Assembly: GCF_900111025.1 (NCBI RefSeq)
Contig: NZ_FOFN01000001.1
Span: 1-64,000 of the forward strand
Origin: Hyunsoonleella jejuensis
GTDB taxonomy: Bacteria > Bacteroidota > Bacteroidia > Flavobacteriales > Flavobacteriaceae
Reading direction: 5' to 3'
Length of the DNA stretch: 64,000 nucleotides
A program made the translations under genes and the position numbers. This document shows, one piece after another, positions 13,829-45,180 of this stretch. The notes under the pieces were generated by a model. It saw nothing but the letters and a program-made list of their open reading frames with translations. It was not told the origin of the DNA and ran no database searches. Position 1 is the first letter of the stretch. Each line of letters opens with the position of its first letter.

Positions 13829-15103
13829 CTAATTAGGATATTTATCCCGAATCTTATCTAAGCTCAAATTGTGTATACTTCCCTCATGTGTATGCTGCTT
13901 AGACGTGTCAGGAACGTAGGTGCCATCTTGCACTTGGCCACCAATTTTTTGATACGCTTCCCTAAATGACAAACCTTCAACAACGAGCGTGTTTATATTA
14001 TCTACCGTAAATAGATATTTGTACTTATCATCCTGAATATTTATATCCTTTACGATGACCTGCTGTATTGAGTAATTAAATATATCTAAAATGTCCTTTA
14101 ACTCTTCAAAAGCGGCAATCATATTTTCTTTTAACAACTGAAAATCCCTGTGATATCCACTCGGTAAATTATTGGTAATTAATACCATTTCAGTTTGAAG
14201 TGCTTGTATTTTATTGCACTTGCCACGAATTAATTCAAAAACATCTGGATTCTTTTTATGTGGCATAATGCTACTACCTGTGGTTAATTCATCAGGAAAG
14301 GAAATAAAGCCAAAATTCTGACTCATGTACAAACATACATCCATGGCAAATCTAGAAAGCGTATTCGCTAAACTACCTAAGGCTGCTGCAATGGTACGTT
14401 CGTTTTTACCACGGCCCATTTGAGCCGCAACCACGTTGTACTTTAAAGTTGAAAACTTCATTTCTTTGGTGGTTAACTCCCTATCGATTGGGAACGAACT
14501 GCCATAACCAGCTGCAGAACCTAAAGGGTTCTGATCTACTGTTTTTAAAGCCGCATTTAGTAAATACACATCATCAATCATCAATTCGGCATAAGCTGAA
14601 AACCACAATCCGAATGATGATGGCATCGCTACTTGTAAATGCGTATACCCTGGTAAAACTTTGTCCTTATAGGTATCTGCTAAATCTAAAAGTGTATCAA
14701 AAAGTGTTTTTGTTTTTGTTTGAATCAACTTTAAATTTTCTTTATAGTACAAATGGCATGCCACTAAAACCTGATCGTTTCTAGAGCGTGCCGTGTGGAT
14801 TTTTTTACCAACTTCACCCAGAGATTTTGTAAGCTCAAACTCTATTTTAGAATGTACATCCTCAAATTGCGCATCAATTTCAAAGGTGCCTTCTTCAATC
14901 TGGGATTCTAGTACATCTAAACCCTCAAGTAATTGTTGTAATTCTTCGGAAGTTAAAATACCGATACTTTGCAACATTTTTGCATGCGCTTTCGATGCTA
15001 TTACATCGTATTTTGCAATATGGATATCAATCTCTCGGTCGTTCCCAACGGTAAATTGTTCTATTTTCTTGTCTATTGATATGCCTTTATCCCAGAGTTT
15101 CAT
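13829..15103 (-). CDS. argH: argininosuccinate lyase
   Basis: The last step of arginine synthesis: argininosuccinate to arginine and fumarate. The 424-residue protein is of the fumarase/aspartase superfamily. It has TARSRNDQ at 104-111, the catalytic His in GYTHLQ (about 155) and the signature GSSIMPHKKNPD at 276-287, which holds the catalytic serine loop. It is a little shorter than the roughly 460 residues of many ArgH proteins, mainly at the C-terminus. It is the last gene of the arginine/proline operon, 36 bp after argE. Confidence 0.95.
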   Translation of the reverse strand: MKLWDKGISIDKKIEQFTVGNDREIDIHIAKYDVIASKAHAKMLQSIGILTSEELQQLLEGLDVLESQIEEGTFEIDAQFEDVHSKIEFELTKSLGEVGKKIHTARSRNDQVLVACHLYYKENLKLIQTKTKTLFDTLLDLADTYKDKVLPGYTHLQVAMPSSFGLWFSAYAELMIDDVYLLNAALKTVDQNPLGSAAGYGSSFPIDRELTTKEMKFSTLKYNVVAAQMGRGKNERTIAAALGSLANTLSRFAMDVCLYMSQNFGFISFPDELTTGSSIMPHKKNPDVFELIRGKCNKIQALQTEMVLITNNLPSGYHRDFQLLKENMIAAFEELKDILDIFNYSIQQVIVKDINIQDDKYKYLFTVDNINTLVVEGLSFREAYQKIGGQVQDGTYVPDTSKQHTHEGSIHNLSLDKIRDKYPN

Positions 15104-15139
15104 TTTGTAAAACGTTTATTTGTTGATACGTTGATTTGT

Positions 15140-16204
15140 TTAGACGATAACTCCATTTAACAATTCAACATAAATTTTAATGCCTTCTTCTATCTCATTC
15201 AAATATATAAATTCATCTGCTGAATGTGAACGTGTACTATCGCCAGGACCTAATTTTAAACTAGGACAAGACAATACGGCCTGATCTGATAAGGTTGGTG
15301 AACCATAGGTAGTTCTTCCCATTGCAATTCCTGCCTTAACTAAATCATGATCCAACGGAATACAGGATGAGTTTAATCGTAAGCTTCTTGGTATAATGCT
15401 TGTTACTGGTGCTTCTTTCTGCAAAATATCGGCTACTTCTCTATTACTGTATGCATCATTTACTCTTACGTCTATCACCAAACTTAAATCTGCGGGTACT
15501 GCGTTGTGCTGTTTTCCTGCACTAATTTGACTCACAGTTAATTTCACATCTCCTAGAGTTTCAGAACCTCTTTCAAACTTAAAATCCCTGAACCATTGTA
15601 AGACATCAATAGATTTATAAATTACATTATCATTGTTGGGATGTGCGGCATGACTAGGTGTTCCCGTAACCACTGCATCAAACACTACCAATCCTTTCTC
15701 AGCAACTGCCAAGTTCATTTGAGTGGGTTCTCCAACGATAGCCACATCAATCTTTGGAATTACCGACAGCATACTGTTCAATCCGTTAGGACCACTACTC
15801 TCCTCTTCCGCAGAAGCAACAATAACTAAATTATATTTTAAATCGTGATGATTGTAAAAATAAACAAACGTAGCCATTAATGATACCAAACAACCGCCTG
15901 CATCATTACTGCCTAAACCGTATAATTTACCATCCTCCACTATGGCACGAAACGGATTTTTAGTATATGCAGAGTTTGGTTTAACCGTATCATGATGTGA
16001 ATTTAAAAGTAACGTTGGCTTGCTATCATCAAAATGTTTATTTACGGCCCAAACGTTGTTTTTTGTACGTTTAAAATCAATATCATAACGTTGAAACCAT
16101 TTTTCAATATGAGCTGCAGTAACATCTTCTTCTGAGGAAAATGATTGAGTTTCAATCAAAGTCTTTAAAAGTGAAATGGCATCTTTGGTCAGTTTCTCTA
16201 TCAT
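15140..16204 (-). CDS. argE: acyl-ornithine deacylase, M20 family (ArgE-like)
   Basis: This 354-residue M20-type metallopeptidase-fold enzyme is predicted to remove the acetyl or succinyl group from acyl-citrulline or acyl-ornithine. Metal-site motifs are visible: HHDTVKP at 70-76, GSNDAGG near 97-103 and the AEEESSG acidic motif near 131. In a pathway with an acyl-ornithine carbamoyltransferase (argF', upstream), the natural substrate is the acylated citrulline. The start overlaps the end of argB by 4 nt, indicating coupled translation. The acyl group is not decided by this gene alone. Confidence 0.88.
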   Translation of the reverse strand: MIEKLTKDAISLLKTLIETQSFSSEEDVTAAHIEKWFQRYDIDFKRTKNNVWAVNKHFDDSKPTLLLNSHHDTVKPNSAYTKNPFRAIVEDGKLYGLGSNDAGGCLVSLMATFVYFYNHHDLKYNLVIVASAEEESSGPNGLNSMLSVIPKIDVAIVGEPTQMNLAVAEKGLVVFDAVVTGTPSHAAHPNNDNVIYKSIDVLQWFRDFKFERGSETLGDVKLTVSQISAGKQHNAVPADLSLVIDVRVNDAYSNREVADILQKEAPVTSIIPRSLRLNSSCIPLDHDLVKAGIAMGRTTYGSPTLSDQAVLSCPSLKLGPGDSTRSHSADEFIYLNEIEEGIKIYVELLNGVIV

Positions 16205-16980
16205 AAGTACAAAGTAGTAAACTTTTGATTTTTATCACTAATTATCGTTGGGTTTCCAACAAAAACTCTTGAAACACCAGATTCAATAGCGTGAAAACTA
16301 TTATCTAGTTTAGGGAGCATGCCATCATGAAAAGCACCTCCATGCTTTAACATTTCGTAGGTGCCATAATCCATATATTCTATAACCGAATTATCGTCTT
16401 CTACAGATTTTAGAACACCGTTTTTTTCAAAACAGTAATACAACTCAACACTATATAATTTTGAGAGCGCTATAGCCAATTCTGAGGCAATGGTATCTGC
16501 ATTTGTATTAAATAATTGCCCTTTTTTATCATGTGTAATGGCGCAAAACACAGGTGTAAAACCTGCTTTAATCAATTTGTTTATAGATTGATGATTCACT
16601 TTTTTAACATCACCTACAAAGCCATAATCGATTTCTTTTACTGGGCGCTTTTCAGAATATATACTATTAATATCTGCACCTGTTAACCCAATAGCATCAA
16701 TATTCAATCCTTGAAGTTGTGCCACAATATTTTTATTTACCAATCCACCATATACCATTGTTATCACCTCTAAGGTATCAGCATCAGTAATACGCCTTCC
16801 ATTAATCATTTTAGAAGGGACACCTAATTTAGAAGCTATGTAGGTAGCACGTTTTCCACCTCCATGTACTAAAATCTTATTCCCCTTAAGCTTAGAGAAA
16901 CGTTCTAAAAATAATTTTAGTGCTTCTGCATCTTCGATAACATTACCGCCAATTTTAACGATGGATAATTGTGCTTTCAT
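16201..16980 (-). CDS. argB: acylglutamate kinase
   Basis: This 259-residue amino-acid-kinase-fold enzyme phosphorylates N-acyl-glutamate. Visible are KIGGN at 9-13, the HGGGK loop at 39-43, and the NADTIASELA segment that lines the nucleotide site. There is no N-terminal helix of the arginine-feedback-sensitive hexameric type, so feedback inhibition by arginine through that route is not expected. It sits 34 bp after argF' and overlaps argE by 4 nt. Whether it acts on acetyl- or succinyl-glutamate is unknown. Confidence 0.93.
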   Translation of the reverse strand: MKAQLSIVKIGGNVIEDAEALKLFLERFSKLKGNKILVHGGGKRATYIASKLGVPSKMINGRRITDADTLEVITMVYGGLVNKNIVAQLQGLNIDAIGLTGADINSIYSEKRPVKEIDYGFVGDVKKVNHQSINKLIKAGFTPVFCAITHDKKGQLFNTNADTIASELAIALSKLYSVELYYCFEKNGVLKSVEDDNSVIEYMDYGTYEMLKHGGAFHDGMLPKLDNSFHAIESGVSRVFVGNPTIISDKNQKFTTLYL

Positions 16981-17014
16981 ATTTTGTTTTTAAGACTTTT
17001 GTACTACTATTACT

Positions 17015-17953
17015 CTATAAATTTTCTAATATCTTTTTTAACACCAATTGTGCGGCATAGGTTCTGTTGTTAGCTTGTTCAATAACGATGGAATTATGGC
17101 TATCTAATACTGCATCTTCAACTACTACGTTGCGTCTTACTGGCAAACAATGCATAAATTTCGCATCGCCTATTTTATCTTTAGTAATCATCCAATCAGT
17201 ACCCTTATTTATAACTTTACCGTAAGCGTCGTAAGCACTCCAGTTTTTCGTATAAATAAAATCAGCATCTTTAAATGCCTCTTCTTGATTGTGGTAAATC
17301 GGTGTATCACCAGTAATTTCAGGATTTAAATCATAGCCTTCTGGGTTTGCTATCACAAACTCCACATCCATTTTTTGCATTGCTTGTGTAAAGCTATTGG
17401 CAACGGCATGCGGTAAAGCCTTAATATGGGGTGCCCAACTCAGCACTACTTTTGGTTTGGCTTTTTGTGAGAATTCCGAAATAGTGAGCGCATCGGTTAA
17501 ACCCTGTAATGGATGTCCTGTAGCACTTTCCATATTCACAATTGGAACAGAGGCATACTCCATAAAAGCATTCAAAACCTGTTCACTTTCGTCTTTAGCT
17601 TTATCGGTTAATGTTGGAAATGCCCTAACCGCAATTATATCGCAATATTGAGATACTACTGCAGCTGCTTCTTTAATATGTTCTGCCGTATTACCATTCA
17701 TAATAGTACCATCATCAAACTCTAAGCCCCAAGCATCTCCGGATACATTCATTACAATAGGGTTCATTCCTAAATTCAATGCTGCTTTTTGCGTACTTAA
17801 ACGGGTACGCAAACTGGAATTAAAGAATAATAACCCTATGGTCATATGCTTTCCTAGCGCAACATGCTGCAACGGATTTGCCTTTAACGTTTTGGCGTCT
17901 TCAATCCATTTCTTAATATTATCAATATCATGTATGGATGTGTAATGCTTCAT
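17015..17953 (-). CDS. argF': N-acyl-ornithine carbamoyltransferase (succinyl type suspected)
   Basis: This 312-residue transcarbamylase acts on N-acylated ornithine. The carbamoyl-phosphate motif reads SSLRTRLST rather than STRTR of ordinary OTCase, and HCLPVRR near the C-terminus is typical of the acetyl/succinyl subgroup. At the position known to set specificity (Glu92 in Xanthomonas acetylornithine, Pro90 in Bacteroides succinylornithine enzyme) the sequence is GNTAEH, that is Ala90. A small residue there fits succinyl-ornithine better. The alignment is by eye and the family numbers are from memory. It lies 7 bp after proB. Confidence 0.88.
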   Translation of the reverse strand: MKHYTSIHDIDNIKKWIEDAKTLKANPLQHVALGKHMTIGLLFFNSSLRTRLSTQKAALNLGMNPIVMNVSGDAWGLEFDDGTIMNGNTAEHIKEAAAVVSQYCDIIAVRAFPTLTDKAKDESEQVLNAFMEYASVPIVNMESATGHPLQGLTDALTISEFSQKAKPKVVLSWAPHIKALPHAVANSFTQAMQKMDVEFVIANPEGYDLNPEITGDTPIYHNQEEAFKDADFIYTKNWSAYDAYGKVINKGTDWMITKDKIGDAKFMHCLPVRRNVVVEDAVLDSHNSIVIEQANNRTYAAQLVLKKILENL

Positions 17954-17960
17954 TTCTATT

Positions 17961-18725
17961 TTATTTTATCTTCGTAAACGGTACTTTATGCGCTATAGCA
18001 TTGAGAATAAAATTATCCTCTAATCCGTTTACAATCCACGTTTCAATATTTGCTTTTTTTGTAACCTCAGCAGCTTCTATTTTAGATTGCATCCCACCAC
18101 TGCCATGAGAGGATTTAGAACTGACTACTTCCTCTGCTAATTCCTTAAAATCATTTACTTCTTCGATAGTTTTAGGCGAACCACTTTCTATAGATAGCTT
18201 AGTGTAAATACCATTTGTATTGGTTGCTATTATAAATAAATCAGCACCCAATAAAGATGCCGTTAAAGCGCCTAATTTATCATTATCACCAAATTTAATT
18301 TCATCTGTAGCAACTGTGTCGTTTTCATTAATGATTGGAATGTAATTGTTATTCACCAGAACATTAATAGTATTCATAATATTGCTTCTGCTGTCTTCCT
18401 TTTCAAAATCGGAATAGGATAATAAACACTGCGAACTCAACAAGCCATATTCTCTAAAAATCTCTTGATAAATTCTAATTAAATGAGGTTGACCTATGGA
18501 TGCCAAAGCTTGCTTTACAAATACATCTTGTTGCTTGCTCTCCAATTTCACAAATTGTTTTGCTACTGCAATAGCGCCAGAACTTACAATAATAAACTCA
18601 CAGGAATCCTGAAGTTTTGCAATTTGATTTGCGATGTCTTCAATCTTGCCTCTGGAAATATTATCGGTTTCCTTGGTTAAGGTATTAGAACCTACTTTTA
18701 ATAATATGCGTTTTTTCTTCTGCAT
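17961..18725 (-). CDS. proB: glutamate 5-kinase
   Basis: The first step of proline synthesis, phosphorylating glutamate. The 254-residue protein has the amino-acid-kinase domain only (KVGSN near residue 10, SSGAIAVA, the NENDTVATDEI acid loop, and GGMQSKI), lacking the C-terminal PUA domain of longer ProB proteins. The start lies 1 bp past the proA stop, so the two are tightly coupled. The presence of pro genes inside an arg operon fits shared glutamate semialdehyde chemistry. Confidence 0.94.
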   Translation of the reverse strand: MQKKKRILLKVGSNTLTKETDNISRGKIEDIANQIAKLQDSCEFIIVSSGAIAVAKQFVKLESKQQDVFVKQALASIGQPHLIRIYQEIFREYGLLSSQCLLSYSDFEKEDSRSNIMNTINVLVNNNYIPIINENDTVATDEIKFGDNDKLGALTASLLGADLFIIATNTNGIYTKLSIESGSPKTIEEVNDFKELAEEVVSSKSSHGSGGMQSKIEAAEVTKKANIETWIVNGLEDNFILNAIAHKVPFTKIK

Positions 18726-18726
18726 G

Positions 18727-19920
18727 CTATCTTATTTGTCCGTTACCATGAACGTACCATTTGTTAGTCACCAAATGTTGCAACCCTATTGGTCCGCGTT
18801 GGTGCAATTTATCTGTACTAATAGCTAATTCGCCCCCTAAACCTAACTGACCACCATCTGTAAAACGTGTAGATGCGTTATGATACACCGCTGCTGTATC
18901 GACGTTTTCCATAAAGGTTTTAGCTTCTACTTCATCAGTTGTAATAATAGACGATGAATGCCCACCGGAATATGTATTAATCATAGCAATAGCATCTTGA
19001 TTAGATGCTATTTCACCAATAAGAATTTTATAATCTAGAAATTCCTCGTACCAAATGTCATCAGATTTAATGGATTCCAACCCGTTCTCTTTTGAAATAG
19101 TTTCATCACCTAAAACTTCAATTTTGAAATCTTTTAATTTAGAAACCAAAGTGTTTACAAACTCCTGTTTATTTGGAAGATTTTTATCAATCAATACTTT
19201 ATCTACTGCATTACACGCTGATATTTTCGACTTTCCGTTCATAATCACATCAATGGCAATATCTAAATCGGCTTCTTTATGAACGTACACAAAATTATTA
19301 CCACGCCCGCTAATAATAACAGGACAGGTTGCATGTTGTTTTACAAAGGCTATTAAACGTTCACCACCACGAGGTACAATTAAATCAACCCGTTGTGTTG
19401 GGTTTTCTAAAAAGGCTTGCGTTTCCGTTCGGTTGTATTGTAAATATTCAACCCAATCGGTAGATGCGCCTTCTTCCTGCAATGCTTGATGCCACAACTC
19501 CACAATTTTTAGGTTAGATCTTAGCGACTCTTTTCCCCCTTTTAGTAAAATTTTATTTCCTGATTTAAAGGCAATGCCTGCTGCTTCAACTGTTACATCT
19601 GGACGAGATTCGTAAATAATCAATACCGTTCCAAAAGACGCCGTTTTATTAAATACCTGCATGCCATTTTCATGTTTAAAACTGAATCGTTCCACACCAA
19701 CCGGATCGTCTTGTGATGCCAAATGTGTTGCTGCTTTAATCATTTCATCTACCTTATTATCGTCCACTTTCAAACGGTCAAACATAGAGATATCATCCCC
19801 TTTATAGGATTGTAAATCAACTTTATTAATATCAATTATCGCCTGACGTTCTTGCTCTAGAAGTGCCGCCATTTTTAATAAAACAGCGTTTCTTTTTTCT
19901 ATAGATAATAGCGTGTTCAT
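18727..19920 (-). CDS. proA: glutamate-5-semialdehyde dehydrogenase
   Basis: This 397-residue enzyme reduces glutamyl-5-phosphate to the semialdehyde in proline synthesis. The aldehyde-dehydrogenase fold is clear: the Rossmann-like TVLIIYESRPDVTVEA segment, the SGNKILLKGGKE loop, and catalytic Cys236 in SKISACNAVDK. The length is normal for ProA. It lies 23 bp after argD and 1 bp before proB. Confidence 0.95.
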   Translation of the reverse strand: MNTLLSIEKRNAVLLKMAALLEQERQAIIDINKVDLQSYKGDDISMFDRLKVDDNKVDEMIKAATHLASQDDPVGVERFSFKHENGMQVFNKTASFGTVLIIYESRPDVTVEAAGIAFKSGNKILLKGGKESLRSNLKIVELWHQALQEEGASTDWVEYLQYNRTETQAFLENPTQRVDLIVPRGGERLIAFVKQHATCPVIISGRGNNFVYVHKEADLDIAIDVIMNGKSKISACNAVDKVLIDKNLPNKQEFVNTLVSKLKDFKIEVLGDETISKENGLESIKSDDIWYEEFLDYKILIGEIASNQDAIAMINTYSGGHSSSIITTDEVEAKTFMENVDTAAVYHNASTRFTDGGQLGLGGELAISTDKLHQRGPIGLQHLVTNKWYVHGNGQIR

Positions 19921-19943
19921 TTTATTTGTTTTGAGTCTTAATC

Positions 19944-21092
19944 TCAGTCTACAATTTGTTCTGCATTTTTCAAAGCTCCTTTCAAAGCTTCAAAAAACTG
20001 ATCAATATTTTGTTTTTCTATATTCAAAGGCGGTAAAATTCTTAAAAGTTTTTTATTTGCTGCTCCTCCTGTAAATATCTTATAATTATAAATTAAATCT
20101 TTACGAAGGTCTCCTACTTCAAAGTCGAATTCTAAACCAAGCATTAATCCTCTACCTTTTATATTTTTTATTTGCGGGATAGTTTTGGCTTTTTCTATAA
20201 AATAATGAGACATGGCATCTACATTAGCCATTAATCCCTCGTCTTCAATCGTATGCAACACCGCTAATCCCGCAGCGCATGCCAGATGATTACCACCAAA
20301 AGTGGTACCTAACATGCCATATTTTGCTTCTATATTTGGATGAATTAAAATACCACCAATAGGAAATCCGTTGCCCATACCTTTTGCTATGGAAATAATA
20401 TCAGGGGTTACATTGTAATGTTGAAACGCAAAGAATTTCCCTGAACGGCCATAACCAGATTGTACCTCATCTGCAATAAACATGGTGTTATTCGTTTTAC
20501 ACAGCGCATACACTTGCTCAAAAAAAGCTGCAGAACCTTGATCTAAACCACCGACACCTTGTATAAACTCAACGATAACCGCGCACACATCACCTTTTTC
20601 CAATTCAGCTTTAACACCCAAAATATCATTGAGTTCTAAAAACGTCACTTTCTGTTGTGCATTTATTGGTGCTACTACATTTGGATTATCAGTAGCTGCA
20701 ACAGCAGCCGATGTGCGTCCGTGAAATCCATTTTTAAAAGCTATCACTCGAGATTTTCCCGTTTTAAAAGATGCTAATTTTAAAGCGTTTTCATTGGCTT
20801 CAGCTCCAGAATTTACTAAAAACAACTCATAGCCTTGGCAACCAGAAAGTGCTTCGATCTTATCGGCCAATTGCTTTTGTAAAGGATTCTGAATCGCATT
20901 AGAATAAAATCCCAATGCATTTACTTGACTGGTAATAGCCTCCACATAGTTTGGATGTGCATGCCCAATAGAAATCACAGCGTGACCTCCATAAAGGTCC
21001 AGATATTCTTCACCTTTATCATCGTAAACATGAATACCTTTCCCAGAAACTGGGGTAACATTATATAATGGATAAACGTCAAATAATGGCAT
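19944..21092 (-). CDS. argD: acyl-ornithine aminotransferase
   Basis: This 382-residue PLP aminotransferase of class III makes N-acyl-ornithine from the acyl-glutamate semialdehyde. PLP-site features are NSGAEANENALK at 94-105, GFHGRT near 122, IADEVQSGYGR near 206, and Schiff-base Lys237 in SIAKGMGNGFP. Members of this family often accept acetyl- and succinyl-ornithine alike. It lies 2 bp after proC and 23 bp before proA. Confidence 0.93.
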   Translation of the reverse strand: MPLFDVYPLYNVTPVSGKGIHVYDDKGEEYLDLYGGHAVISIGHAHPNYVEAITSQVNALGFYSNAIQNPLQKQLADKIEALSGCQGYELFLVNSGAEANENALKLASFKTGKSRVIAFKNGFHGRTSAAVAATDNPNVVAPINAQQKVTFLELNDILGVKAELEKGDVCAVIVEFIQGVGGLDQGSAAFFEQVYALCKTNNTMFIADEVQSGYGRSGKFFAFQHYNVTPDIISIAKGMGNGFPIGGILIHPNIEAKYGMLGTTFGGNHLACAAGLAVLHTIEDEGLMANVDAMSHYFIEKAKTIPQIKNIKGRGLMLGLEFDFEVGDLRKDLIYNYKIFTGGAANKKLLRILPPLNIEKQNIDQFFEALKGALKNAEQIVD

Positions 21093-21094
21093 GT

Positions 21095-21889
21095 TTAACT
21101 ATTTTTAATTTGGTTAATTTTTTCAAACGAAGCCGTAATACCCTTGATTAAAGACGAACTCAATCCTTGGTGCTCCATTTCATTAAGGCCCTCAATTGTA
21201 CAACCGCTTGGTGTAGTTACTCTATCGATTTCAGCCTCTGGATGTCTACCAGATTCTTTCAATAAACTAGCCGCTCCATAGCAGGTTTGTAATGCTAATT
21301 GGTGTGCTTCTTCTGCCTCAAAACCTAGTTGAATAGCGCCTTGGGTTGTAGCACGCACCAAGCGCATCCAAAAAGCAATACCACTCGCGCAGATTACAGT
21401 TGCTGCTTGAATTTGTTCTTCTGGAATTACCATAGTTGTTCCTAATTGATTGAAAATAGTCTTTGCCAATTCTATTTTCAACTGCCCCACAAGATTTGCC
21501 GACAAACACGTCATGGATTTACCAATAGAAATCGCCGTGTTTGGCATCACACGAATAATGTGTTTATCCTCACCTAAAATGGCCTCAATCTTTGCAATGG
21601 AAAATCCTGCGGCAACCGACATCACAACATGCTCCTCAGTAATCAATGGTTGTATTTCTTTTAATACACCTTCAATATGGCGCGGTTGTAATGCAAAAAT
21701 CACAACGTCGCTGTTTTCAACTGCAGCAGCGTTATTATTGGTAATCGTCACATATGCTTCATCCACAAATTCATTCACTTGCGACGTGTTTTTGTCGCTC
21801 AAGTACAACGACGTGAAAGACTTGTTTTTTATCAGCCCTTTTGCAATCGAACTTCCCAAATTTCCCGTTCCAATAATCGCTATTTTCAT
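21095..21889 (-). CDS. proC: pyrroline-5-carboxylate reductase
   Basis: This 264-residue NAD(P)H-dependent enzyme makes proline from pyrroline-5-carboxylate. It has the Rossmann motif IGTGNLGSS at 6-14, VIFALQPRHIE, and the C-terminal helical domain with RVTTPSGCTIEGL, the usual signature. It is 2 bp before argD; upstream a 128-bp gap carries an inverted pair of REP-like repeats separating it from argC. With proA and proB it completes proline synthesis inside the operon. Confidence 0.93.
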   Translation of the reverse strand: MKIAIIGTGNLGSSIAKGLIKNKSFTSLYLSDKNTSQVNEFVDEAYVTITNNNAAAVENSDVVIFALQPRHIEGVLKEIQPLITEEHVVMSVAAGFSIAKIEAILGEDKHIIRVMPNTAISIGKSMTCLSANLVGQLKIELAKTIFNQLGTTMVIPEEQIQAATVICASGIAFWMRLVRATTQGAIQLGFEAEEAHQLALQTCYGAASLLKESGRHPEAEIDRVTTPSGCTIEGLNEMEHQGLSSSLIKGITASFEKINQIKNS

Positions 21890-21900
21890 AATTCCTAGTA

Positions 21901-22018
21901 AGCCCTTCCTAACCTACCCATAGGGAGGAACAAAAGCTATTTTTTTATGTTATTATTTATATCTCAATACTATATACTCACAAGAGTTTCCTCTCCTTCG
22001 GAGGGGTTAGGGGAGGCT
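21901..22018. repeat. inverted pair of REP-like elements (REPIN-like)
   Basis: Two related GC-rich arms face each other in the proC-argC gap: the left arm near 21903-21930 (AAGCCCTTCCTAACC ... AGGGAGGAAC) and the right arm near 21985-22018, whose reverse complement reads AAGCCTCCCCTAACCCC then AGGAGAGGAAAC. Each arm has its own short hairpin (CTCCTTCGGAG in the right one). The spacer of about 55 nt is AT-rich. The right arm overlaps the argC stop. The unit CTCCTTCGGAGGGGTTAGG is known to me as a dispersed repeat in Flavobacteriia. Confidence 0.7.
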
Positions 22019-22995
22019 TAAAAGTAAGTCGCTTTCAATCCTAATCCTGTTGTTTCTTCTAATCCGAACATCAAATTCATATTCTGTACAGCTTGTCCTG
22101 AAGCGCCTTTCAATAAATTATCAATAGTACTAGTTATTAGTAATTTACCGTTGTGCTTATGCAAATGCACCAAACATTTGTTAGTATTTACCACCTGTTT
22201 CATATGTAAAAAATCATCCGAAACAAAAGTAAACTTCGCATCCTTGTAAAACGATTTATAAATGGTTTTTGCATCTTCAACCGATCCTTCGAAATCGGTA
22301 TAAATAGTTGCAAAAATTCCTCTTGAAAAATTACCTCTATTTGGCATAAAAATAATTTCAGAAAAAAAATCAGACTGTAATTGATTCACAGATTGATTGA
22401 TTTCACCTAAATGCTGATGCGTAAAGGGTTTGTAATACGAAAAATTATTGTCTCTCCATGTAAAATGAGTGGTAGCTGACAGTGATGTGCCTGCACCAGT
22501 TGCACCAGTTACAGCATTTACATGCACATCTTTAGTAATTAAACCTGCATCTGCCAATGGCAATAGCCCTAACTGAATCGCCGTGGCAAAACAACCAGGG
22601 TTTGCGATATATTTCGCATTTACAATAGCCTCTTTATTTAATTCTGGCAACCCATAAACAAAAGTTTTACCTTCAAAAGTTTTATCCGCTTCAAGTCTAA
22701 AATCGTTTCCTAAATCTATAATTTTAGTAGTTTCAGAAAAGGTATTTGCCGATAAAAACTTTACTGAATTACCATGACCTAAGCATAAAAACAACACATC
22801 TATATTCGGGTTTACGGTATCCGTAAATTTTAAATCTAACGATCCTACTAAATCTTGGTGTACTTTACTAATGTGGTTCCCAGCATTCGAGGTACTGAAT
22901 ACAAAATCTATCTCTGCATTTGGATGATTAATCAATATCCTAATTAACTCTCCAGCTGTATATCCTGCACCACCAATAATTCCAACCTTAATCAT
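22018..22995 (-). CDS. argC: N-acyl-gamma-glutamyl-phosphate reductase
   Basis: This 325-residue NADPH-dependent enzyme reduces acyl-glutamyl phosphate. It has the Rossmann motif GIIGGAGYTAGEL at 5-17 and the catalytic Cys135 in NPGCFATA. The HxxxLGEI motif near the middle of the protein is the usual ArgC substrate region. Length is normal for the short ArgC type. It lies 3 bp after argG and is separated from proC by a repeat pair. Confidence 0.95.
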   Translation of the reverse strand: MIKVGIIGGAGYTAGELIRILINHPNAEIDFVFSTSNAGNHISKVHQDLVGSLDLKFTDTVNPNIDVLFLCLGHGNSVKFLSANTFSETTKIIDLGNDFRLEADKTFEGKTFVYGLPELNKEAIVNAKYIANPGCFATAIQLGLLPLADAGLITKDVHVNAVTGATGAGTSLSATTHFTWRDNNFSYYKPFTHQHLGEINQSVNQLQSDFFSEIIFMPNRGNFSRGIFATIYTDFEGSVEDAKTIYKSFYKDAKFTFVSDDFLHMKQVVNTNKCLVHLHKHNGKLLITSTIDNLLKGASGQAVQNMNLMFGLEETTGLGLKATYF

Positions 22996-22998
22996 ATT

Positions 22999-24174
22999 TT
23001 AAGAGTTTACCTGTTGATATATTTTGTTTTGATTTCCAAGAATTTTAATAAATCCTTTAGCATCATCAGCAGTCCAAGCTCTATTTTCTTCCCCATAGCT
23101 TCCAAATTTCGCACTCATTAAATCATGCTCAGATGTTATACCATCTAATGAGAAATGATAAGGTTTCAAGGTTACTGTAACATCTCCCGACACCATATCT
23201 TGACTACTTTGTAGAAATGCTTCAATATTTCGCATTACTGGGTCTAAATACTGTCCTTCATGTAAATGCATACCATAAAAACTAGACAAGTATTCTTTAT
23301 GCTGCAATTGCCATTTGGTTAATGTATGCTTTTCTAATAGGTGGTGCGCTTTCACTGTAATTAAAGCTGCGGCAGCTTCAAATCCAACTCTTCCTTTTAT
23401 ACCAACAATGGTATCACCAACATGTATATCTCTACCGATGGCATAGGCCGAAGCTATATCATTTAGTTTTTCAATATTTACTTCTGGAGCATTTTCTTCA
23501 CCGTTTAGCGCAACGAACTCTCCCTTTTTAAAAGTTAAGGTTACTTTTTCTTCTCCCTCTTTTTCCAATTGTGATGGATAAGCCTCACTTGGTAAAGGTT
23601 TTTCTGATTCTAATGTTTCAACACCTCCAACACTAGTACCCCAAAGCCCTTTGTTTACAGAGTATTTAGATTTTTCCCAAGGCATATCAATACCTTCAGA
23701 TTTTAAATAATCAATCTCTTCCTGTCTGGTTAATTTTTGGTCTCTAATTGGAGTAATAATCTTGATATTCGGTGCCAACGTTTGGAAGATCATATCAAAT
23801 CTTACTTGATCATTTCCTGCACCTGTACTGCCGTGGGCTATATATTCTGCATTAATACTTTTAGCATATTCAATAATTTCAATCGCTTGAATAATACGCT
23901 CTGCACTTACAGATAGCGGATATGTATTGTTTTTTAATACGTTACCAAATATTAAGTATTTTACCACTTTTTGATAAAAGGTAGCAACCGCATCAATGTT
24001 CTTGTATGTAGAAACCCCCATTTTATAGGCGTTACTTTCAATATGTTTAATTTCTTCTTGTGTAAAACCTCCTGTATTCACACTTACCGCATGCACATCA
24101 TAGTCTTTAGATAAACTAACTGCACAGTACGAGGTATCCAATCCGCCACTATAAGCTATTACTAATTTTTTCAT
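22999..24174 (-). CDS. argG: argininosuccinate synthase
   Basis: This 391-residue enzyme joins citrulline and aspartate using ATP. The N-terminal PP-loop AYSGGLDTS at 7-15 binds ATP, and GSTGAGNDQVRFD is the conserved substrate-binding signature. The length is typical of the family. It is the second gene of the operon, 4 bp after the GNAT gene and 3 bp before argC. Confidence 0.96.
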   Translation of the reverse strand: MKKLVIAYSGGLDTSYCAVSLSKDYDVHAVSVNTGGFTQEEIKHIESNAYKMGVSTYKNIDAVATFYQKVVKYLIFGNVLKNNTYPLSVSAERIIQAIEIIEYAKSINAEYIAHGSTGAGNDQVRFDMIFQTLAPNIKIITPIRDQKLTRQEEIDYLKSEGIDMPWEKSKYSVNKGLWGTSVGGVETLESEKPLPSEAYPSQLEKEGEEKVTLTFKKGEFVALNGEENAPEVNIEKLNDIASAYAIGRDIHVGDTIVGIKGRVGFEAAAALITVKAHHLLEKHTLTKWQLQHKEYLSSFYGMHLHEGQYLDPVMRNIEAFLQSSQDMVSGDVTVTLKPYHFSLDGITSEHDLMSAKFGSYGEENRAWTADDAKGFIKILGNQNKIYQQVNS

Positions 24175-24178
24175 TGTA

Positions 24179-24796
24179 TTATTTTTTGTCTTTTTTTAGA
24201 AACAAAGCTTCTTTAATTCGTTTTAATCTGTTAAACGCACCTTCTTTGACTTTTACTTTTTCGTCTTTCTTGGCTTTTTCAGGATCGTAAAGCATACCTG
24301 TACACAAACACATTTTTCTATTGGTACGAGTTAATACATCGTAATTTTTGCAAGTTTGGCAGCCATCCCAAAAGGTCTGGTCATCTGTTAATTCAGAAAA
24401 GGGAACAGGTTTATAACCTAAATCGCTATTCATTTTCATTACAGGTAAACCAGTAGTAATACTAAACACTTTGGCATCTGGAAACTTATTTCTAGAATGC
24501 TCAAATATCTTATGCTTAATTTGTTTTGCAAGACCATGCCCTCTATAATCTGGATGCACAATTAAGCCAGAATTGGCTACAAATTTGCCATGTCCCCATT
24601 TTTCGATGTAACAAAATCCAGCAAATTTATCGCCATCCAAAGCTATAACGGCGTTTCCGTTTTCAATTTTTGTCGCAATATATTCTGGTGTGCGTCTGGC
24701 AATACCTGTGCCTCTAACCTGGGCAGATTCAGCGATAGTGTCGCAGATGGCTTCTGCGTATTTAATATGTGATATATCGGCTATTACAACCTTCAT
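24179..24796 (-). CDS. GNAT acyltransferase, candidate acylglutamate synthase
   Basis: This 205-residue protein opens the arginine operon. The GNAT acyl-CoA-binding signature lies at about residues 78-92 (VHPDYRGHGLAKQIK). The C-terminal part carries four cysteines, Cys146-x2-Cys149 and Cys163-x-Cys165, which could bind a metal; this is unusual in a simple GNAT. No classical argA or argJ is seen in the operon, so this protein is the natural candidate for the first step, acylating glutamate. Whether the donor is acetyl-CoA or succinyl-CoA is open; the argF' product hints at succinyl. Its leader region holds two arginine-rich frames. Confidence 0.75.
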   Translation of the reverse strand: MKVVIADISHIKYAEAICDTIAESAQVRGTGIARRTPEYIATKIENGNAVIALDGDKFAGFCYIEKWGHGKFVANSGLIVHPDYRGHGLAKQIKHKIFEHSRNKFPDAKVFSITTGLPVMKMNSDLGYKPVPFSELTDDQTFWDGCQTCKNYDVLTRTNRKMCLCTGMLYDPEKAKKDEKVKVKEGAFNRLKRIKEALFLKKDKK

Positions 24797-24879
24797 TTTT
24801 TGTCGTCTTTTTAAATTTTAAAATTTTCTTTTGAATACTGAACCGGACTCACCTAAGCTCAAAAAAATAGATAGTACCC

Positions 24880-24909
24880 TTACGGGCGACGAGGGAAACG
24901 ACGACGCAT
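24880..24909 (-). CDS. arginine-rich leader peptide 2
   Basis: The frame reads MRRRFPRRP and then TAA: five of nine residues are arginine. All codons (CGT, CGT, CGT, CGT, CGC) are read straight from the sequence. It ends 83 bp upstream of the GNAT start and is followed within about 15 nt by a T-run on the transcript strand. A 9-residue frame is too short for its own support, but its composition at the head of an arginine operon is hard to dismiss. Confidence 0.7.
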   Translation of the reverse strand: MRRRFPRRP

Positions 24910-24921
24910 AATAGAATTGTG

Positions 24922-24939
24922 GTTAATTATTGAATTAAC
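24922..24939 (-). promoter_or_regulatory. hairpin between the two leader peptides
   Basis: GTTAATT-CAAT-AATTAAC is a perfect 7-bp inverted repeat with a 4-nt loop, 12 bp upstream of leader peptide 2. It is AT-only in its outer pairs, so it would be weak as a terminator; it could occlude or pace translation of the second frame. Confidence 0.45.
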
Positions 24940-25023
24940 TTTATTTTGAAATGCTATGTTTTGATTTTTGGACACTGTTTGAAAAATTAAAATGACGTTT
25001 TGGGTTTTACTAATTTTAAAGTA

Positions 25024-25095
25024 TTAGAAGCGGCGGCGTCTGCGCGCGGGGAAACCGGGAGTGGTAAAACGTATCTTATGTTTTAAATTTTTCAT
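25024..25095 (-). CDS. arginine-rich leader peptide 1
   Basis: This 23-residue frame starts with MKNLKHKIRF, continues with TTPGFPA and ends in five consecutive Arg codons (CGC AGA CGC CGC CGC) and Phe before TAA. The in-frame stop upstream lies at 25107-25105, so the ATG at 25095 is the natural start. It sits 228 bp upstream of the GNAT start, on the operon strand. Its placement and Arg run fit a regulatory leader peptide that stalls when arginyl-tRNA is low. Confidence 0.75.
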   Translation of the reverse strand: MKNLKHKIRFTTPGFPARRRRRF

Positions 25096-25218
25096 GTAGT
25101 AAAACTAAAACTTTATTTCATAAACACCTAAAAACCATGAGACTTTTGATGAAAATTGAATAAATCTCTTTTTTTCAAAGGTTTTGTTTTGAAAAATTTA
25201 AAAAATAGAAGTTTTAGC

Positions 25219-25247
25219 AAAAAAAATGCACGTCTTAAATCGTGCAT
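25219..25247 (-). terminator. intrinsic terminator after the DUF1080 gene
   Basis: On the minus strand ATGCACG pairs with CGTGCAT (25226-25232 with 25241-25247) and is followed by eight T. It lies 27 bp after the stop of the DUF1080 gene at 25274 and so separates the sugar operon from the arginine leader. Confidence 0.8.
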
Positions 25248-45058: not shown

Positions 45059-45073
45059 CACATCGATAAATCA

Positions 45074-45180
45074 TAGAGGAAAGATTTGACTGATTGCAAC
45101 CTCTTTACACCACAAAAATCGTGTAAGCAAAAATGCTAAAGGCAGTGTAAACTCCTGAGACGTTTTCCGTCAAATCTTAC
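45074..45180 (+). ncRNA. SAM-I (S-box) riboswitch
   Basis: The region directly upstream of metK folds as an S-box aptamer: P1 is AAGATTTGAC (45081-45090) with GTCAAATCTT (45169-45178), a perfect 10-bp stem. Inside are the conserved GCAACC (45096-45101), a TTACAC/GTGTAA stem (45105-45110 with 45121-45126) and the TGCTAAA segment (45134-45140). It binds S-adenosylmethionine, the product of metK, giving feedback control. P1 ends 20 bp before the ATG, so sequestration of the start region is a likely output; no separate terminator is visible. Confidence 0.88.

Follow-up and report, generated by a model that had tools for sequence, protein, structure and literature searches.

What do two arginine-rich reading frames, lying one after the other ahead of an arginine/proline operon, contribute to its control, and do they act side by side or in series? 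Both frames lie in the window, the 64,000-nucleotide stretch of Hyunsoonleella jejuensis DNA analyzed here, where a first-pass annotation had noticed them on the operon strand and had proposed a graded response from two Arg leaders. Comparison with the leaders of related genomes makes an Arg-responsive leader-peptide regulator very likely. Within that reading, we favor on balance an arginine-sensing, ribosome-mediated leader of the arginine/proline operon that holds two leader peptides in series, with ORF1 gating ORF2.

The operon and its leader in related genomes

The features of the locus are collected in Table 1. Nine of ten operon proteins scanned against NCBIfam matched arginine/proline-type families, some of them below the curated cut-off, and the GNAT-like protein matched no NCBIfam model at 1e-10; argH (13829–15103), outside the ten-protein scan, was named by eye. 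An intrinsic terminator at 25247–25226 (−), after the upstream gene, separates that gene from the arg leader.

Table 1 Features of the arg leader and its operon in the window
Feature	Position	Strand	Basis
−7 promoter box TAGTTTTA, 4 nt before the ORF1 start	25100–25107	−	Read in the sequence; predicted
ORF1, leader peptide 1, MKNLKHKIRFTTPGFPARRRRRF then stop	25024–25095	−	Conserved in relatives; dN/dS
Stem S, 5′ arm, ORF1 codons 6–11	25065–25079	−	Swap test
Arg cluster of ORF1, CGC AGA CGC CGC CGC	25030–25044	−	Read in the sequence
Hairpin H1 over the ORF1 stop codon, CTAAT...ATTAG	25009–25028	−	Swap test; −2.5 kcal/mol, weak here
Stem S, 3′ arm, upstream of the ORF2 start	24987–25001	−	Swap test
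ORF2, leader peptide 2, VSKNQNIAFQNKVNSIINHNSIMRRRFPRRP then stop; GTG start 24975, TAA stop 24880, 31 codons	24880–24975	−	Start and length conservation
Hairpin P0 inside ORF2, GTTAATT...AATTAAC	24922–24939	−	Swap test
Hairpin P1, CGCCC-GTAA-GGGTA, from the last Arg/Pro codons and stop of ORF2	24875–24888	−	Near-invariant stem
Hairpin P2, loop AGGTGNGTCC, covarying stem	24838–24862	−	Covariation; swap test
Regulated operon: GNAT-like gene, argG, argC, proC, argD, proA, proB, argF′-type carbamoyltransferase, argB, argE/dapE-type, argH	13829–24796	−	

Searches with the GNAT protein returned matches in 267 of 397 family genomes and, at genus level, in 6 of 12 genomes, the own genome counted and one match being weak. 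In G095, a genome that the GNAT query did not match, a different gene of 194 aa occupies the GNAT place, and the leader, argG and argC are kept (L151, 554–1138; used for gene order only and outside all counts). Because the leader there precedes the 194-aa gene, argG and argC, the element seems to be linked to the arg operon and not to the GNAT gene.

Leaders were gathered from 33 search loci, 97 of 100 fetched regions and 80 named loci (Hyunsoonleella, Jejuia, Algibacter, Polaribacter, Nonlabens, Formosa and others). L001 and L008 (duplicates), L006 (no leader), and L127 and L134 (motif not found) were excluded before counting. Removal of 28 repeats from the 210 leaders left 182 distinct ones, 173 of which have a P2 loop and CGCC; nine with no P2 loop or CGCC were left out (L010, L014, L025, L026, L035, L043, L114, L143 and L225). 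The 173 divide into 130 leaders called tandem and 43 called single, some of the latter (for example, L027, L064 and L120) possibly being tandem with an overlooked ORF1. The tandem set fell to 127 once L144, L081 and L228, with a doubtful ORF1, were removed.

Two arginine-rich frames are conserved in order and spacing

Comparison of the leaders in relatives found both frames conserved in order, in spacing and in their Arg-rich ends, the gap between ORF1 and ORF2 spanning 39–62 nt (median 47) in the 127 tandem leaders. The first frame had been described exactly, as 25095–25024 with five consecutive Arg codons, then Phe and a stop; ORF2 has RRR and RR. The closest relatives share an ORF1 like MKNLKNKIRCTTPGLPVRxRRRF followed by a stop, and more distant ones retain chiefly its start, length and Arg-rich end. 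In nearest-neighbor pairs (53–58 per test, here and below), the dN/dS of ORF1 was 0.60 in its own frame, and the two other frames gave 1.08 and 0.96.

Mean numbers of Arg codons were 5.11 for ORF1 and 3.93 for ORF2 in the 127 tandem leaders, and 4.62 in those 40 single leaders that begin with ATG; the ORF1 counts are not independent evidence, because Arg content helped to define ORF1 and the tandem class. The choice of Arg codon in ORF1, unlike their number, is independent evidence. In the C-terminal half of ORF1 in the tandem leaders, 353 of 522 Arg codons are CGC and 20 are AGA; the GNAT genes from the 80 named loci have 637 Arg codons, 32 of them CGC and 402 AGA. The leaders thus prefer a codon seldom used by the gene next to them. 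By codon counts, the GC-rich look of the leader frames comes from CGC and CGT codons, and some of the CGC bias in ORF2 may be due to the needs of P1.

In 108 of 127 tandem leaders, the 22 nt ahead of ORF1 contain a box of the form TA..TTT[GA] (100 shuffles: mean 10.4, maximum 17), and a −7-type box lies within 30 nt before the ATG start in 26 of 40 single leaders, a count made without a shuffle control. A passage of PMC9723704 gives TAnnTTTG as the −7 box consensus. The message probably starts at or just before ORF1, as judged from the placement of this predicted box. A near-leaderless ORF1 would be unusual, because 87% of the predicted transcripts of F. johnsoniae have leaders longer than 10 nt, as given in a part of PMC6847099.

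ORF2 is constrained at its arginine-rich end

The second frame had been read as 24909–24880, MRRRFPRRP and a stop. That frame is present, most likely as the 3′ portion of a longer ORF2 with its start at GTG 24975. At 30 or 31 codons from the end, 51 + 72 of the 130 tandem leaders have an in-frame ATG, GTG or TTG, where the other frames average 2.5 per position; 122 of the 127 tandem leaders have an ORF2 with such a start and 30 or 31 codons. The start assumed by the first-pass annotation, at −9, is available in frame in 52 of 130 tandem leaders and may serve as an internal ORF2 start in this clade.

ORF2 resembles VSKxxxIAFQNxVNxxIN...FPRRP plus a stop in the closest relatives, most of which keep the FPRRP-stop end. 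More distant relatives retain the start, the length and usually RRP; the N-terminal part becomes unrecognizable between distant genera, with little besides RRP left. Over the whole of ORF2, no coding constraint was found (dN/dS 0.77 in frame versus 0.84 and 0.75 out of frame), the N-terminal part behaving like the off-frames (0.86) with no conservation of sensor residues, and codons −9 to −3 gave 0.52 in frame versus 1.36 and 1.46 out of frame. Among 78 leaders chosen from 93 for an RRP-stop end, a selection that by itself conserves the last four columns, Pro occurs at −4 in 45 and uses all four Pro codons, and the stop is TAA in 66, TAG in 11 and TGA in 1. By these rates, ORF1 and the end of ORF2 are constrained as codons and the ORF2 peptide as a whole is not.

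This pattern, constraint in ORF1 and the ORF2 end only, fits codon sensing better than nascent-chain arrest, in which the ORF2 peptide, from within the exit tunnel, would respond to arginine or a metabolite related to it and stall at its Pro-stop, with TnaC and SpeFL as the arrest-peptide comparisons. The Pro-stop end, kept as FPRRP-stop in most of the closest relatives, would suit arrest, yet the N-terminal part of ORF2 shows neither coding constraint nor recognizable likeness across genera, and RRP is demanded by P1 too. We regard arrest as highly improbable and retain sensing through Arg codons.

The P2 loop or the ORF2 stop is lost in some relatives. A change in the P1 loop removes the ORF2 stop in L059, L063, L068, L076, L080 and L088, and the stop is likewise lost in Polaribacter loci such as L192 and L196; P1 and P2 stay in both groups, and the read-through frames run on as RRPLG..., RRPQG... 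or FRPLG.... L010 is a natural loss, with ORF1 intact and the ORF2 end, P1 and P2 decayed. A third frame after P2 was inspected by eye and discarded; its stop is not conserved.

Stem S connects ORF1 with the ORF2 initiation region

Pairing between the arms of each stem was assessed by swap tests in 37 dissimilar tandem leaders, with phylogeny not modeled in the z values. Stem S gave z = −8.2 (0 of 5000 permutations), P0 −7.4, P2 −5.5 and H1 a weaker −3.8, against +0.3 and +2.0 for two control pairings. S reaches −5 kcal/mol or better in 124 of 127 tandem leaders, and by medians its 5′ arm lies at nt 12–28 of ORF1, ahead of the Arg cluster, whose first Arg falls at nt 52, and its 3′ arm runs from about −23 to −5 relative to the start of ORF2.

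When 594 pairs of 18-nt windows, spaced by 22 nt or more, were scanned in 72 leaders, P2 (t = −9.3) and S (t = −7.0) ranked highest; t also rose to +6.0 with the sign reversed, chiefly between windows lying close together, so that the null of the scan is imperfectly calibrated. S and P2 are not alternatives to each other or to P1. Among these pairs, the scan returned no covarying partner of the GNAT start region (best t = −2.1) and no alternative fold explaining the output.

Because S covers the ORF2 initiation region, a serial gate is suggested, and we give the gate as drawn below slightly less than an even chance. Since initiation in F. johnsoniae is tuned by structure around the start, according to a passage of PMC6847099, control by a stem that covers the region of the ORF2 start is plausible. 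The start codons point the same way: the ORF2 start is GTG or TTG in 107 of 127 tandem leaders, and under one rule for both classes (an in-frame ATG 24–45 codons before the end), ATG is found in 22 of 127 tandem versus 40 of 43 single leaders, so ORF2 of the tandem leaders fits a gated ORF.

The same two findings weigh against a pair of independent, additive Arg sensors giving a graded response, in which S would shape only ORF1 or the message end. Arg codons in both ORFs would suit that arrangement, and ORF2 seems able to function without ORF1, since the single-ORF leaders (43 of 173) keep ORF2 with P1/P2. The strong covariation by which S links ORF1 codons to the ORF2 initiation region, and the rarity of ATG in tandem ORF2, argue otherwise, and we consider additive sensing unlikely. 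Of the graded response proposed earlier, the conservation of both leaders holds, but they may not be equal additive sensors, given that S covers the region where ORF2 is initiated. Judged by sequence, the outcomes that would have refuted the first-pass reading, frames not conserved in relatives or a start of the transcript downstream of both, are not seen, the predicted −7 box lying ahead of ORF1. Gating of ORF2 by ORF1 remains our preferred reading.

P1 and P2 form a hairpin pair at a near-constant distance from the ORF2 stop

The second frame had been thought to be followed only by weak stems, which understates the region: the ORF2 stop sits in P1, and the covarying P2 lies downstream. A loose P2 loop pattern was passed by 87 of 93 leaders, with the loop GGTGNGTCC in 84 of the 87. 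The P2 consensus is GGAACYNAGGUGNGUCCRGUUCC, and a script anchored at the loop found a mean of 5.80 of 6 positions paired in the 87 leaders, compared to 5.10 of 6 (maximum 5.26) when the right arms were redealt. In alignment A2, for which 37 of the 87 rows were picked by their two-base bulge, 18 cells changed on both sides, all of them in P2, versus 3.5 in shuffles and above every shuffle; counted as pairs changed on both sides, A2 gave 2 versus 1.2, not above the shuffles. P1 is without covariation support because its stem hardly varies, although its loop does. RNAalifold on the MAFFT alignment A1, in which the P2 arms are misaligned, returned only an invariant CGCC-GGTG pairing. Pairing of P1 with the P2 loop through CGCC-GGTG was unsupported in the swap test (z = +1.1).

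P2 starts about 19–22 nt after the first base of the ORF2 stop (5–95%), and its distance to the GNAT gene varies from 42 to 94 nt (5–95%). As the stop-to-P2 spacing is nearly constant and the P2-to-GNAT distance is not, P1/P2 seem to cooperate with a ribosome translating ORF2, rather than to mask the start of the gene. In L084, a second GGAATTAGGTGAGTTC-like copy of the P2 motif lies about 144 nt upstream of its P2, near the presumed promoter.

Model R1, built from A2 and covering P1 and P2, matched 238 of 397 family genomes, with one match per genome among the matches listed. A class sample gave matches in 10 of 395 genomes, nine of the same family and one weak (E = 9.6e-4), around which a script found no P2 loop. 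The next match of R1 in the own genome had E = 0.016. The P2 loop motif occurs at four other sites in the genome, without hairpin context by eye, and a reversed-pattern control gave three matches. By these comparisons, the tandem leader lies well beyond chance, its P1/P2 part alone recurring across the family.

Rfam gave no match at the arg leader in the window; between 24780 and 25300, its ten matches with E up to 10 were all far below gathering scores. The sole Rfam match in the window is a SAM-II riboswitch at 45070–45149 (+), near ilvD on the other strand. Upstream of ilvD (ATG 44723, −), no leader peptide rich in branched-chain residues was seen by eye.

The near-uniform P2 loop and the relatives that keep P1/P2 after loss of the ORF2 stop would be expected if the RNA were a metabolite- or protein-binding element with the ORFs secondary. 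Coding constraint in ORF1 and in the ORF2 end speaks against such an element, two small hairpins are small for a riboswitch, and Rfam offers no family for them; we judge it improbable and keep the hairpins as partners of a ribosome on ORF2.

Attenuation is likely without a strong terminator

A standard terminator scan of the window found none that is strong on the operon strand between ORF1 and the GNAT gene. Elsewhere in this genome, hisG is preceded by the leader MNITHIHHHFFICSQAK (HIHHH) and a 12-bp terminator of −16.8 kcal/mol (L232, 2166–2280, −), and trpE by the leader MNKKLNNTWWWCFSKLTFVK (WWW) and a 13-bp terminator of −17.7 kcal/mol (L234, 2929–3046, −). By their sequence, these his and trp leaders are classical attenuators with strong terminators. 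Ordinary attenuation at an intrinsic terminator finds no support in the arg leader, although P1 is terminator-like by a loose rule. Under that rule, sites were called at 51 of 118 tandem loci, where shuffles predict 23.4, and at 13 of 18 single loci, where 4.0 are expected; P1 accounts for 41 of the tandem and 9 of the single sites. The T-run noted after the second frame is present and lies before P2; in relatives it is a soft, T-rich tail (70–83% T at positions 9–11 after P1) and no strict U-tract.

The excess of loose-rule sites and the T-rich tail, together with the overlap of P1 with the last codons and stop of ORF2, are what would be seen if P1 were itself a weak intrinsic terminator whose 5′ arm is blocked by a ribosome paused on the RR codons, for which the pyrBI leader of Escherichia coli is the comparison. 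P1 has a median of −6.6 kcal/mol, far from the his and trp values, and the 8 positions after it contain 4.0 T on average. It was not among the calls of the standard scan of the window, and P2 would be left without a role. We consider transcription attenuation at P1 by itself rather unlikely. For the arg leader as a whole, attenuation that works without a strong terminator is likely.

Proposed mechanism

From these features, we infer pausing at Arg codons, the gating direction of S, a role of P1/P2 and the output step, and we tentatively combine them into a two-stage cascade: an Arg pause in a near-leaderless ORF1 would keep the weak ORF2 start open through S, and a pause in ORF2 would set expression through the new hairpin pair, with no strong terminator involved. 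Transcription would begin at ORF1 or immediately upstream. A shortage of charged tRNA-Arg would make ribosomes pause in the Arg run at the ORF1 end. The model needs a ribosome queue, because a paused leading ribosome alone leaves the S 5′ arm free. From ribosome footprint sizes, a pause at nt 52 would put the next queued ribosome on about nt 4–34, over the S 5′ arm; with the early ORF1 codons so occupied, S could not close over the ORF2 initiation region. The open ORF2, mostly with a weak start codon, would then be translated, and its ribosome would pause on the RR(P) codons, which form the P1 5′ arm beside P2. P1 would be held open and the operon expressed.

When arginine is plentiful, ribosomes would clear ORF1, S and H1 would form, ORF2 would be little translated, P1 and P2 would be free, and the operon would be turned down. 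The output of this turn-down is most likely, at a guess, transcription termination without a strong intrinsic terminator, either Rho-assisted or with P1 as a weak terminator. If the cascade is true, two pauses are needed in series, and the response would be steep and not graded. The leader would also be a probable example of attenuation that manages without a strong terminator, beside ordinary his and trp leaders in the same genome, and it contributes a structured RNA, with no Rfam match, that occurs in 238 of 397 family genomes sampled.

Comparison with known systems

In searches of open-access PMC texts, no title or opening of an abstract named this arg leader, and no paper joined leader-peptide attenuation with arginine biosynthesis in Bacteroidetes. 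In the same family, a part of PMC9723704 describes clues for leader-peptide attenuation before amino-acid operons of Flavobacterium psychrophilum; one of its sections lists pheA and hisG among conserved elements and names no arg gene, tandem leader or P1/P2 structure. Arg codons in a leader ORF are linked to arginine in the speF leader of Salmonella (PMC6386406), speF being a decarboxylase gene, and rbfL of Staphylococcus aureus is an Arg-sensing single uORF that blocks the start of the next gene (in a passage of PMC13009471). Both resemble the arg leader in their Arg codons, and neither, as far as the texts consulted show, has this tandem arrangement or P1/P2.

The his and trp attenuators, those of this genome included, share with the arg leader a short ORF upstream of the operon that is rich in codons for its product. 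They carry a strong terminator after the leader ORF, whereas the arg leader instead has two ORFs, S and P1/P2.

Serial leader peptides have been described for macrolide-resistance genes, where the interplay of both is still unclear, and in one published model for ermA, pausing on ErmAL1 activates translation of ErmAL2 (as set out in parts of PMC8274638). As far as those parts describe it, ermA answers macrolides and its second leader controls translation of the methylase; the arg leader presumably answers an arginine signal, and the pair scan gave no stem over its GNAT start. The likeness lies in the two leader ORFs in series, with S in the arg leader able, as predicted, to close the start region of the second.
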